NCBI GenBank assembly: GCA_902624785.1
Contig: CACNYU010000009.1
Coordinates: 1-38,888, forward strand
Direction: 5' to 3'
Length of the DNA stretch: 38,888 bases
Source of the DNA: an uncultured Prochlorococcus sp.
Lineage (GTDB): Bacteria; Cyanobacteriota; Cyanobacteriia; PCC-6307; Cyanobiaceae
Shown here: in pieces, positions 17,348 through 20,686 of the stretch
Layout: each line of letters starts with the position of its first letter
Numbering within the stretch: the stretch's first letter is position 1
Made by a program: the position numbers and the translations under genes
Notes under the pieces: generated by a model
The model's database searches: none
Told to the model about the DNA's origin: nothing
Seen by the model: the letters and a program-made list of their open reading frames with translations, nothing else

Positions 17348-18448
17348 ATGATATTAAATTCAATTAAACAAAAGTTACTTTCAAAATATAAGAAAAAACG
17401 TTGGCCTGGTCTTATTAATGCATATAAGAGTTATTTACCAGTTACAAAAAATACTCCTATTATCACTTTAAAAGAAGGAAATACTCCTTTAATTTTTAGT
17501 GAGAACCTTAGCAATTTAATTGGAAACAATACAAAAATTTATCTCAAATATGATGGATTGAATCCTACTGGATCTTTCAAAGATAGAGGAATGACAATGG
17601 CCATCAGCAAAGCAAAAGAAGAAGGATGCGAAGCTGTTATTTGTGCTAGCACAGGAAATACTTCTGCCTCTGCAGCAGCTTATGCTGCTAGAGGAGGGTT
17701 AAAATCATTTGTATTAATACCTGATGGGTTTGTCGCACAAGGTAAACTCGCACAAGCTTTAATGTATGGTGCTGAAGTATTATCAATCAACGGAAATTTT
17801 GACGATGCGTTAGAAATCGTACAACAACTTTCAAAAGAATATCCAATAACTCTTGTAAATTCTGTTAATCCTTATAGGATTGAAGGTCAGAAAACTGCTG
17901 CTTTCGAAATCATGGATGACTTAAAAACATCTCCTGATTGGTTATGTATCCCTATGGGAAATGCTGGAAACATAACTGCATACTGGAAAGGTTTTAATGA
18001 ATATTATAAAAAAAATAAGAAATACAAGTTACCAAAAATGATGGGATTTCAATCTTCAGGTTCTGCTCCATTAGTTGAAAATATAATAGTAAAAAACCCT
18101 GAAACAATAGCAACTGCCATAAGAATAGGCAATCCAGTAAATAGAGAAAAAGCAAAAGTCGTAAAGAAGGAAAGTAAGGGTGATTTTCAATCAGTAACAG
18201 ATGATGAAATCATTGATGCTTATAAAGTACTTGCAAAAGAAGGTGTATTTTGCGAACCGGCAAGTGCAGCCTCAGTAGCAGGATTAATAAAAAATAAAAA
18301 TAGAATAAAGAAAGACTCTCTGATTGTCTGTGTACTTACAGGTAATGGATTAAAAGACCCAGAATGCGCTATTAAAAATAATGATGCAATTTTTCAAAAA
18401 AACGTTGAACCATCATTAAATAATATTTCAAAAATATTAGGATATTAA
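17348..18448 (+). CDS. thrC: Threonine synthase ThrC
   Basis: ThrC converts O-phosphohomoserine to threonine with PLP. The 366-residue protein is of the short bacterial type. The PLP lysine is in [30 protein letters not shown] forms the phosphate/substrate loop, [14 protein letters not shown] binds the PLP phosphate, and [11 protein letters not shown] and [10 protein letters not shown] occur near the end. These are all expected positions. It starts ten bases after the DUF1400 gene and is the last gene before the proposed origin. Its transcription runs rightward towards the origin, so its + strand lies on the lagging-template side if replication starts at about 18.65 kb. Confidence 0.96.
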
Positions 18449-18471
18449 TAGTGGTCAAAGAATAAAGTGGT

Positions 18472-18480
18472 TGTGGAAAA
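18472..18480 (-). other. DnaA box (reverse)
   Basis: TGTGGAAAA here is the complement of TTTTCCACA, the form of the DnaA box reported for cyanobacteria. It is an exact match. It is the first of three reverse-oriented sites at about 30-base intervals. Confidence 0.75.
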
Positions 18481-18501
18481 GAAAGATTTATAACTTAAAA
18501 A

Positions 18502-18510
18502 TGTGGAAAC
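18502..18510 (-). other. DnaA box (reverse), one mismatch
   Basis: TGTGGAAAC is the complement of GTTTCCACA, one base from TTTTCCACA. It is identical to the second forward box of the right cluster (18654-18662). It starts 30 bases after the previous box. Confidence 0.65.
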
Positions 18511-18532
18511 AACCTTTAAAATTCATCTAAAA

Positions 18533-18541
18533 TGTGTAAAA
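18533..18541 (-). other. Degenerate DnaA box (reverse)
   Basis: TGTGTAAAA is the complement of TTTTACACA, one mismatch at a core C. It would be a weak site on its own. It is listed because it continues the 30-31 base spacing of the two better boxes. Confidence 0.35.
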
Positions 18542-18644
18542 TTTTTAAAATGAAAAATAATTTCTAAAATTTATAAACAAATAACTATTTTTTTTAACAA
18601 TAATTATTTCTTAAAAATTTAATGATGGAAATATATTGATTGTG

Positions 18645-18653
18645 TTATCCACA
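18645..18653 (+). other. DnaA box, perfect consensus
   Basis: TTATCCACA is an exact match to the strong bacterial DnaA box. The next box abuts it with no gap, so two DnaA molecules could sit head to tail pointing at the CTA repeats. Confidence 0.85.
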
Positions 18654-18662
18654 GTTTCCACA
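18654..18662 (+). other. DnaA box, abutting the consensus box
   Basis: GTTTCCACA is one mismatch from the cyanobacterial TTTTCCACA. It lies immediately after the consensus box in the same direction and four bases before the CTA trinucleotides. This is the box from which DnaA would be loaded onto single strands. Confidence 0.75.
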
Positions 18663-18666
18663 AGTA

Positions 18667-18678
18667 CTACTACTACTA
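18667..18678 (+). repeat. (CTA)4, candidate DnaA-trio element
   Basis: Four CTA trinucleotides in register begin four bases after the last forward DnaA box. The complementary strand reads 3'-GAT-5' four times, which is the DnaA-trio consensus bound by a DnaA filament on one strand during origin opening. The orientation and order (box, short spacer, trios, A/T tract) are those of the B. subtilis unwinding region. An A/T-only stretch (AAATATAAATATTTAAAA) follows at once. Confidence 0.7.
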
Positions 18679-18795
18679 AATATAAATATTTAAAATTAAT
18701 TACTTTAGATATTTATTGAATAATTAAAAAAAAATAAGAGATGGAATTCCTTTAAAAGTAGAACTAATATATATTTATTAAACAAAAAATTTCAG

Positions 18796-19959
18796 ATGGA
18801 GATAGTTTGTCAACAAAGTGAGTTGAACATTGCTATTCAATTAGTGAATAAAGCTGTAGCTTCTAGACCTACACATCCTATACTATCCAATATTTTATTT
18901 ACAGCGGATGAGGTTACTAATAAAATTAGCTTGACAGGATTTGACTTGAATTTAGGAATTCAAACTTCTTTTGACGCTAATGTAGCTAAAAGTGGTGCTA
19001 TCACAATTCCTTCAAAAATTTTATCTGAAATAGTTTCTAAACTACCTAGCGAATCTCCAGTAACCCTGACAGTAGAAGAAGATTCAGAAAATATTTTATT
19101 AAAAAGTGATCGAGGATCTTTTAATTTAAAAGGAATAGCCTCTGATGATTATCCTAAGTTGCCCTTTGTAGAGAGTGGAGCTTCTTTAGATATCAATCCT
19201 GTTGTTTTTTTACAAGCTTTAAAACTAACAATGTTTTCTAGTAGTAATGACGAATCCAAACAGCTACTTACAGGCGTTAATTTTAAATTCAAAAATCACT
19301 CTTTAGAATCAGCAGCTACCGATGGACATCGATTAGCTGTTGTATTAACTTCTGAAGGAGAAAATTTTTCTAAATTAGAAATGATTAATAATTTAAATAG
19401 TGATGATAATTATTTATCTGTGACAATACCTACTAGATCTCTCCGTGAGATAGAAAAACTTGTTAATACAAAAATAAAAGAGGATTCTATTAAATTGTTT
19501 TATGATAAAGGACAGGTTGTTTTTATTTCCTCTAATCAAATCATTACTACGAGAACTTTAGAAGGAAGTTATCCGAATTATTCACAACTTATCCCTGATA
19601 ATTTTTCAAAAGTTTTCAAATTTGAAAGGAATTTATTTATTAACTCTTTGGAACGTATTGCTGTTTTAGCTGATCAACAAAGTAGTGTAGTAAAAATAAA
19701 TATAAATGACGATAAATTTGCTTCAATAAGTGCTGATGCTCAAGACATAGGAAATGCTAGAGAATTATTGCCTGTTTCTTTTGATGGTGATCAAATTGAT
19801 ATAGCTTTTAATGTAAGATATTTACTAGAGGGATTGCGAGTGATTACTTCTGAAAATATTTTATTGAAATGTAATTTGCCTAATACCCCAGCAGTCTTAG
19901 TACCTGACGATGATAGCTCTTTCACTTATTTAGTTATGCCAGTCCAAATTCGATCATAA
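18796..19959 (+). CDS. dnaN: DNA polymerase III beta sliding clamp DnaN
   Basis: The clamp is a ring-shaped dimer that tethers polymerase III to DNA and recruits repair and replication partners. The 387 residues form three similar domains of about 125 residues each. Typical segments are TILSNILF-like near residue 30, the conserved TDGHRLAV in domain 2, and the C-terminal YLVMPVQIR, whose MPVQ/MR end is nearly invariant. The ATG at 18796 is the first in frame. The gene is adjacent to the proposed origin without dnaA, as in other marine picocyanobacteria. The next gene starts one base after the stop, so the two are co-transcribed. Confidence 0.98.
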   Translation: MEIVCQQSELNIAIQLVNKAVASRPTHPILSNILFTADEVTNKISLTGFDLNLGIQTSFDANVAKSGAITIPSKILSEIVSKLPSESPVTLTVEEDSENILLKSDRGSFNLKGIASDDYPKLPFVESGASLDINPVVFLQALKLTMFSSSNDESKQLLTGVNFKFKNHSLESAATDGHRLAVVLTSEGENFSKLEMINNLNSDDNYLSVTIPTRSLREIEKLVNTKIKEDSIKLFYDKGQVVFISSNQIITTRTLEGSYPNYSQLIPDNFSKVFKFERNLFINSLERIAVLADQQSSVVKININDDKFASISADAQDIGNARELLPVSFDGDQIDIAFNVRYLLEGLRVITSENILLKCNLPNTPAVLVPDDDSSFTYLVMPVQIRS

Positions 19960-19960
19960 G

Positions 19961-20686
19961 GTGAAATTACCTCAACAATATCTTTTAAGTAATTTATTAA
20001 GTCATAATGTTCGAAAGAATATGACATTATCTTATGGTGTAGGTGAAACTGTATGGATGCATCCACCTGTTCATCGTATCCTTGGCTGGTCCTCGAGACC
20101 TTCAAATTTAAATTTAAAAAGAAATGTTTGGAGATTAAATCAAATAAGCCAAATTGTCGATAGTGATATTTTTGTTAAAGGGGAGCCAGCTATATCAGAT
20201 TTGAATACATTAAATAGATTTCCTAGTCTTTTATTTGCAAATTTAATCAATAAAAATGGTTTAAAAATTGGTTCAATAGCCGATTTTATTTTTGATTTTA
20301 AAACAGGCAATATTTTAAGCTATTTAATCTCTAGGTCTAATCCTCGTATCCCTGGGTCTAGTCGATGGAAATTAAATATTAAAAGTATTACTGATCAGCA
20401 GCCAGGATTAGTCTTTTGTTGTGAAGAATCTCTTGATGACTTTGTGTTAATAAAATCTAGTATTAAAAATGAATTTTTTAAAAAAGGAAAAAACTTATTT
20501 AATAAATTTGATGATATGAGAAACATTGCTACTAATAAATTAGAAGATTGGTTAGAAGAGGATGACTTTTATAGCTCAAAATTTGATTCAGCAGATGATC
20601 AATTAATAAATAAAAATAATAAAATCAAACCAGATGTTAAAAATTCAAATTATTCTAATAATAGAGAAAATGATCCTTGGATTTGA
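19961..20686 (+). CDS. PRC-barrel domain protein
   Basis: The gene starts with GTG one base after the dnaN stop and encodes 241 residues. Residues about 85-165 form a PRC-barrel-like domain, a short beta barrel around GLKIGSIADFIFDFKTGNILSYLISR. Such domains bind proteins or pigments in photosynthetic reaction centres and RNA-maturation factors. The N-terminal part has a conserved WMHPPVHRILGWSSRPSNL segment shared with other cyanobacterial homologues as I recall them. The last 70 residues are Lys/Asn/Asp-rich and probably unstructured. It is always next to dnaN in the picocyanobacteria I recall, but the function is not established. purL begins three bases after the stop. Confidence 0.82.
   Translation: MKLPQQYLLSNLLSHNVRKNMTLSYGVGETVWMHPPVHRILGWSSRPSNLNLKRNVWRLNQISQIVDSDIFVKGEPAISDLNTLNRFPSLLFANLINKNGLKIGSIADFIFDFKTGNILSYLISRSNPRIPGSSRWKLNIKSITDQQPGLVFCCEESLDDFVLIKSSIKNEFFKKGKNLFNKFDDMRNIATNKLEDWLEEDDFYSSKFDSADDQLINKNNKIKPDVKNSNYSNNRENDPWI

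Follow-up and report, generated by a model that had tools for sequence, protein, structure and literature searches.

A probable DnaA-trio unwinding module ahead of dnaN in HNLC-type Prochlorococcus, and its occurrence across cyanobacteria

The intergenic region between thrC and dnaN in the DNA analyzed here (38,888 nucleotides from an uncultured Prochlorococcus, the whole of which is referred to below as the window) very probably contains the segment of the chromosomal origin (oriC) of an HNLC-type Prochlorococcus that DnaA binds and opens, at positions 18472-18702, within which positions 18645-18702 form the unwinding module, a basal unwinding system (BUS) made up of DnaA boxes and DnaA-trios. 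Few photosynthetic organisms are more abundant than Prochlorococcus, and a literature search found no description of its unwinding site. This kind of element is already known, and it is the comparative material that merits a second look. The distribution of the element among cyanobacteria suggests in which lineages it is still used to begin replication and in which it has been abandoned.

The window is contig C9 of a 1.12-Mb genome that is 55.6% complete and in which dnaA was not found. The product of its dnaN is 94% identical to DnaN of the relative G214, and we infer that the source organism is a Prochlorococcus of the HNLC kind. The gap between the two genes (18449-18795; 347 bp, 18% GC) is bordered opposite dnaN by thrC rather than dnaA, as expected from an earlier note on this DNA, which held that dnaA is not next to dnaN. 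The open reading frame directly 3' of dnaN (19961-20686) had no NCBIfam match. An RNA element and a terminator were both rejected as readings of the region, the first because positions 18300-18900 gave no Rfam match at the gathering score and the second because no terminator was found within 18400-18820. Chromosome records of many relatives begin ∼130 to 205 bp upstream of dnaN, and therefore their depositors take that place as the origin. The window has several local GC-skew switches, and one of them, ∼4 kb left of the element, gives weak support for an origin here.

Table 1. Features of the thrC-dnaN region (positions in the window)
Feature	Position	Strand	Remarks
thrC (threonine synthase)	17348..18448	+	Left border of the origin gap; TIGR00260, 329 bits, above cut-off
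Distal inverted DnaA box TTTTCCACA	18472..18480	-	173 bp before BUS box 1
Inverted DnaA-box-like sequence GTTTCCACA	18502..18510	-	Offset -143; also in near relatives G214 and G135
Inverted DnaA-box-like sequence TTTTACACA	18533..18541	-	Offset -112; also in near relatives G214 and G135
BUS DnaA box 1, TTATCCACA	18645..18653	+	0 mismatches to consensus
BUS DnaA box 2, GTTTCCACA	18654..18662	+	Abuts box 1 head to tail
Spacer AGTA	18663..18666	+	4-nt length conserved, bases free
Four DnaA-trios, CTACTACTACTA (CTA x4)	18667..18678	+	3'-GAT-5' x4 on the - strand
A/T-only tract, 24 bp	18679..18702	.	Presumed site of further duplex opening
dnaN (DNA polymerase III beta)	18796..19959	+	Right border of the origin; TIGR00663, 332 bits, above cut-off

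The abutting boxes, four intervening bases, four CTA copies and A/T-only tract that the earlier note had listed were all found at the positions that it gave (Table 1). Its description of a perfect consensus box holds for box 1 but not for box 2, which has G in place of T at position 1. A published survey of BUS elements accepted distances of up to 16 nt between the better box and the first trio, with a peak at 10 to 13 nt (PMC8287927). In the window the first trio lies 13 nt from box 1, the better of the two boxes, and 4 nt from box 2; where a BUS may have two mismatches in its DnaA box, TTATCCACA has none, and where at least three in-phase 3'-NAN-5' trios (consensus, 3'-GAT-5') are looked for, there are four, all of them 3'-GAT-5'. 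Location in the chromosomal origin is indicated by linkage and homology, namely, the dnaN side and the same place and orientation as at dnaA-BUS-dnaN loci elsewhere.

In order to evaluate conservation within the genus, dnaN was located in 188 of 249 Prochlorococcus genomes and the DNA upstream of it was read in 102, of which 100 contained the element. The module could be aligned without gaps, with a fixed 4-nt spacer, in 97 genomes, which were picked by a score that assumed this spacer length; box 1 starts at -163 to -135 from dnaN. Three further genomes hold the element, two of them (G147 and G120) with sequence cut by the contig start and one (G125) with box 1 shifted by 1 bp, and in these three the spacer is also 4 nt. 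G089 has just 71 bp upstream of dnaN, too little for the element to be read. In G081 (contig C30, locus L013) only approximately the last 50 bp before dnaN match relatives and other sequence replaces the origin module, which reflects either a chimeric contig or a rearrangement. CTA was present at trios 1, 2, 3, and 4 in 97, 96, 86, and 87 of the 97 aligned genomes, respectively. The spacer took 35 different sequences at a constant length of 4 nt. Mean information per column was 1.6 to 1.7 bits in the boxes and 1.7 to 2.0 bits in the trios, compared to 0.75 bits in the spacer and 0.6 to 0.85 bits in the flanks. Constraint thus falls on boxes, trios, and spacer length but not on spacer bases; boxes and trios are kept while spacer and flanks drift, the outcome that the earlier note had proposed as a check.

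Upstream sequence reached far enough in 83 of the aligned genus genomes; 76 of these have an inverted box at -171 to -175 from BUS box 1, and in 64 it stands at exactly -173. The distance from BUS to this box was rigid (standard deviation, 0.52 bp) compared to that from BUS to dnaN (4.3 bp). The other cyanobacterial origins analyzed (n = 58) contain 265 inverted boxes in the interval -230 to -75, and these follow a period of 10.5 bp, locked to the BUS, with a resultant of 0.80, a value reached in none of 2,000 uniform draws. The peaks fall at -83, -114, -135, -145, -156, -177, and -188, with direct boxes at -65 and -54, and of 207 intervals between adjacent inverted boxes, 129 measure 11, 21, or 31 bp. 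These 58 origins are related, and therefore the lattice shows conserved geometry and not independent events. Helical phasing of DnaA sites is known in Escherichia coli. A contrast set of 15 Clostridia origins with 31 inverted boxes gave a best period of 12.0 with other offsets and layout; the Nocardia contrast set consisted of one usable origin. Prochlorococcus seems to have a reduced version of the cyanobacterial layout, its -173 box lying 4 bp from the -177 peak.

The same module was found ahead of dnaN in all 31 family genomes searched, with the first trio at -121 to -203 (the match in G513 is weak). That search relied on boxes, spacer, and trio 1, trios 2 to 4 being left out of the scoring, and covered 31 of the 32 genomes drawn; G553 was excluded because its dnaN starts at a contig edge. 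Outside the family, a flexible scan that penalized G at the middle trio base placed the module near dnaN in 13 of 50 dnaA-bearing genomes of the class. The same penalty caused five GC-rich family members (G513, G509, G420, G541, and G551) to be missed, and their modules were found by direct reading and by the scan without trios 2 to 4. Among 30 further class genomes chosen to cover families, 24 had the module near dnaN, and four of the other six carry the strict pattern elsewhere in the genome. G284 has the trios CTA TTA CTA CTG and five inverted upstream boxes, compared to one in most Prochlorococcus.

An annotation-blind scan of GTDB genome contigs for the exact composite gave at least 116 stretches, of which 80 loci were examined. 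Of these 80, dnaN followed within 600 bp in the same orientation at 68 and dnaA lay upstream at 40, so that 73 loci, from several phyla, have one or both genes in the neighborhood. Half of the loci examined (40/80) are cyanobacterial, and 38 of those 40 have dnaN within 600 bp downstream; the 40 non-cyanobacterial loci belong to Nocardia, Mycobacteroides, Clostridia, other Bacillota, one Chloroflexi, and others, and 35 of them have dnaN downstream or dnaA upstream. Of the seven examined loci with neither gene, four lie near the end of their sequence (three with no more than 200 bp and one with no more than 800 bp downstream), and another (L265) has the module ahead of dnaA. The composite lies between dnaA and dnaN in Nocardia, Clostridia, and others, and dnaA-BUS-dnaN is the usual non-cyanobacterial order among the matches listed. 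Boxes, plus-strand CTA, and A/T tract have the same orientation in the window as at the dnaA-dnaN loci of other phyla. In Prochlorococcus dnaA is elsewhere and the BUS has stayed with dnaN. The reverse arrangement was observed in G275 (G275:C1:37-1889 and G275:C1:3080768), in which the BUS comes just after dnaA and dnaN is ∼3 Mb away. In two genomes of one genus (G656 and G709; family f23, genus g183) the BUS pattern matches twice on a single contig, at a distance of ∼920 bp, which may reflect duplication of the unwinding module.

The element might instead be a regulatory site of the dnaN promoter, at which DnaA binding times dnaN expression, with trios that are incidental and no origin. It sits 118 to 151 bp ahead of the dnaN start, promoter-like sites within 18400-18820 number 7 compared to a shuffle mean of 3.7 (standard deviation, 1.9), and DnaA is a transcription factor in other bacteria (PMC7198777). 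However, spacing to dnaN is loose and spacing to the distal inverted box is rigid, and trio phase and the 4-nt spacer are fixed beyond the needs of double-stranded DNA binding alone. Furthermore, the element is beside dnaA, far from dnaN, in G275, and four genomes (G519, G628, G634, and G660) carry the strict pattern but not within 1.5 kb before dnaN. Thus, it seems very unlikely that regulation of dnaN accounts for the element.

Across the class the strict pattern was detected in 194 of 388 genomes, nearly always once, versus one hit for a reversed-pattern control. dnaA was found (E ≤1e-50) in 370 of the 388 genomes, in 368 of them above the curated cut-off; the 18 others are the incomplete window genome and 17 more. 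The strict motif was present in 193 of the 370 genomes with dnaA versus none of the 17 without it (Fisher test, P about 1e-5, kinship ignored). The earlier note held that some cyanobacteria tolerate dnaA loss; dnaA is reported to be dispensable in Synechocystis 6803, Nostoc 7120, and Synechococcus 7002 (PMC7198777), strains with which the analyzed genomes likely overlap. Irregular GC skew is also reported for much of the part of the tree that includes these strains (PMC7198777).

The strict pattern misses modules that are degenerate or have 8-bp spacing (families f18 and f47 and marine Synechococcus), and therefore a pattern-negative genome is not always BUS-negative. Because of these misses a looser pattern was run on 79 pattern-negative genomes, 62 with dnaA from thirteen families and 17 without (16 of the earlier 17 plus G543). 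Searched anywhere in these genomes, it gave 13 matches in 11 genomes versus 9 for the reversed control, which is about chance, and it matched the positive control, G284, at the known place. The dnaA-less G299 and G475 are among the 11, with a 21-mer that is identical in G493 and G335. Near-complete genomes G299, G475 (both family f7, genus g26), and G363 also gave no match to the DnaN query; it is possible that their dnaN is split or intein bearing.

On a tree of 93 DnaN proteins, 13 of them from dnaA-less genomes, dnaA was lost 7 to 8 times, in every case on branches scored as BUS lacking, which make up 36% of the tree length. A branch-length estimate for this coincidence gave P of about 8e-4 (∼1e-3 without the long BUS-positive branch G584), with mapping by parsimony on a single-gene, midpoint-rooted tree of hand-chosen rows. 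Three apparent BUS gains on the tree are more likely retentions, and G415, which was labeled BUS-negative there and scored low in the flexible scan, probably holds a degenerate BUS. The dnaA-less rows neighbor rows that lack the BUS and have dnaA, which suggests that the BUS goes first. DnaA-independence before loss of the gene has already been proposed (PMC7198777), and no paper linking BUS absence to dnaA loss was found in the literature search. Absence of the BUS, which we propose as a mark of replication independent of DnaA and oriC, does not apply to the window, where the BUS is present.

If anything less probable than a dnaN-promoter site is a relic, an ancestral origin element in a Prochlorococcus that now replicates without DnaA as some cyanobacteria do (PMC7198777). 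dnaA is not adjacent to dnaN here, and two base-capture residues of the protein are changed in some of the genus. With B. subtilis residue numbering from 8btg, 30 cyanobacterial DnaA proteins were aligned and examined for the BUS-type residues Asn187, Ile190, Ile193, Arg202, and Glu228. Equivalents of Ile190, Ile193, and Glu183 are kept in all 30, which favors a DnaA-dependent module. In four of the five Prochlorococcus proteins (G214, G015, G022, and G225) Asn187 is replaced by Ser and Arg202 by Lys; that of G214 (HNLC1; L487) retains Ile190 and Ile193. G227, the fifth, has Asn and Arg at these positions, and Asn occupies the 187 equivalent in all 26 of the other proteins, G227 included. Both residues contact captured bases, Asn187 the middle trio base, and therefore trios may be read differently in detail in these organisms. 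Arguing against a relic, the dnaA-less genomes have no strict element, yet the element is nearly invariant in the 97 Prochlorococcus genomes, and dnaA was retained in all 18 genus genomes searched, which were chosen by hand.

Chance, whereby a CTA microsatellite would have arisen next to DnaA boxes in an AT-rich intergenic region, can be dismissed with near certainty on the basis of the shuffles below, the reversed-pattern control, and conservation in the genus and across phyla, even though the gap is short and AT rich and (CTA)4 on either strand arose in 1 of 20,000 dinucleotide shuffles of it. A box with at most one mismatch followed within 16 nt by three or more CTA copies did not arise in 20,000 such shuffles and arose in two when two mismatches were allowed; the exact NTTTCCACA-4-CTAx3 unit was likewise absent from 20,000. 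In the 38.9-kb window (CTA)4 or (TAG)4 occurs a single time. The pattern of two boxes, 4 nt, and CTAx3, with at most three mismatches, has one match in the 1.12-Mb assembly and none when reversed. The judgment in the earlier note that the arrangement was unlikely by chance in a 347-base gap is in line with these results.

The relatives of the window genome offer a natural mutational series in the trios. A recent cryo-EM structure indicates that DnaA captures two bases of the 3'-GAT-5' trio, the G and the A, with the amine of the A contacting Asn187; both in vitro and in vivo, C is a better substitute for the middle A than is G or T (PMC10721633). The family scan took only CTA, CGA, and CTT as trio 1, which barred a middle C from that trio, and therefore trios 2 to 4 are quoted. 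In the 31 family genomes the middle plus-strand base at these 93 positions was T in 50, G in 40, A in 3, and C in none, and the third base was A in 58, G in 34, T in 1, and C in none. Adding 17 dnaN-linked loci gave 48 relatives with 144 positions, at which the middle plus-strand base was T in 79, G in 61, A in 3, and C in 1, that is, A in 79, C in 61, T in 3, and G in 1 on the trio strand (counts are per genome, kinship ignored). The pattern that located the 17 added loci left the middle bases of trios 2 to 4 free; trio 1 was fixed, as were C as the first base of trios 2 and 3 and A as the third base of trio 2, and the third base of trio 3 could be A or G. This pattern had yielded 30 loci; 2 were duplicates, and 11 were dropped because they lacked a dnaN hit, 6 of these 11 being one recurring 21-mer that is probably coding. 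Among loci left out, L501, L506, L517, and L521 have A or C at a middle position and L516 has GCT trios.

Transitions are thus common at the third trio base and nearly absent at the middle, where A-to-C transversion dominates. The A-to-C middle change was found in 10 genera and the A-to-G change in one (G811). Both changes raise GC, and therefore composition alone fails to explain the choice. The middle-base substitutions in the 48 relatives follow the prediction of the published base-capture (amine) rule. Within the AT-rich genus Prochlorococcus, the middle plus-strand base was T in 383, A in 4, and C in 1 of 388 trios, and these rare changes depart from the rule. No statement of a natural middle-base substitution pattern was found in the accessible text of PMC10721633 or in the literature search. 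The published BUS search program required A at the middle position (PMC8287927) and therefore would pass over trios of the GC-rich type.

The preferred reading is a DnaA-dependent unwinding module. From the biochemistry of other BUS elements, DnaA on the two boxes would seed an oligomer of ATP-DnaA, which would step onto the minus strand with one protomer per 3'-GAT-5' trio; by capturing the G and A of each trio, the protomers would pull the strands apart into the A/T tract, where helicase would load. At -173, the distal inverted box probably serves to position additional DnaA at a constant distance from the module. Duplex opening is predicted at 18667-18702. The proposal of the earlier note that the element operates here as it does elsewhere is most likely right and gains support from genus conservation and from the same composite at dnaA-dnaN loci of other phyla; replication in vivo would then start at the element. 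Some dnaA-bearing cyanobacteria do not need dnaA (PMC7198777), and therefore DnaA sites alone do not prove use.

A broader proposal, for which we consider the chances to be about even, is that the BUS acts as the switch by which cyanobacteria are tied to DnaA. Every lineage that relies on DnaA to start replication, Prochlorococcus included, would keep the BUS together with upstream boxes on the 10.5-bp lattice, and disappearance of the BUS from the genome would precede and permit the repeated loss of dnaA. As long as the BUS was retained, the exocyclic amine at the middle position of the trios would have been under selection, leading GC-rich picocyanobacteria to shift GAT to GCT or GCC without passing through GGT. 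A short element with a fixed readout could predict DnaA-dependent replication from cyanobacterial genomes, and the order of BUS first and gene later would make the discarding of DnaA by free-living cyanobacteria testable at the sequence level. The trio series, in addition, agrees with the nucleobase-capture structure.

Cyanobacterial origins in DoriC and from Ori-Finder (PMC6323995, PMC10225481, and PMC4674748) likewise lie on the dnaN side with TTTTCCACA-type boxes. DoriC 10 lists DnaA-trio annotations for origins (PMC6323995), and box counts and a consensus are given in these papers; their accessible portions make no mention of a phased lattice, of GCT or GCC trios, or of a link between BUS absence and dnaA loss. 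The closest known counterpart is the BUS of B. subtilis oriC (boxes 6/7 and DnaA-trios; PMC6669920, PMC8287927, and PMC10721633), compared here by its published description. Both have tandem boxes of which the upstream one matches better, a distance of 13 nt between box 1 and the first trio, in-phase 3'-GAT-5' trios, and an A/T tract beyond. Unlike B. subtilis, Prochlorococcus has a 4-nt gap of free sequence between box 2 and the trios, four perfect trios, no adjacent dnaA, and upstream boxes that are mostly inverted, and in other cyanobacteria the upstream boxes are helically phased, which also differs from B. subtilis. The term Bacillus-like used in the earlier note is correct as to the kind of element but undersells it, as the BUS has been described as bacteria-wide and was reconstituted with DnaA of Synechococcus elongatus (PMC8287927). 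The oriC of S. elongatus, from the same phylum, also combines boxes and trios according to its published description, and S. elongatus DnaA needs both to unwind its cognate scaffold in vitro (PMC8287927).
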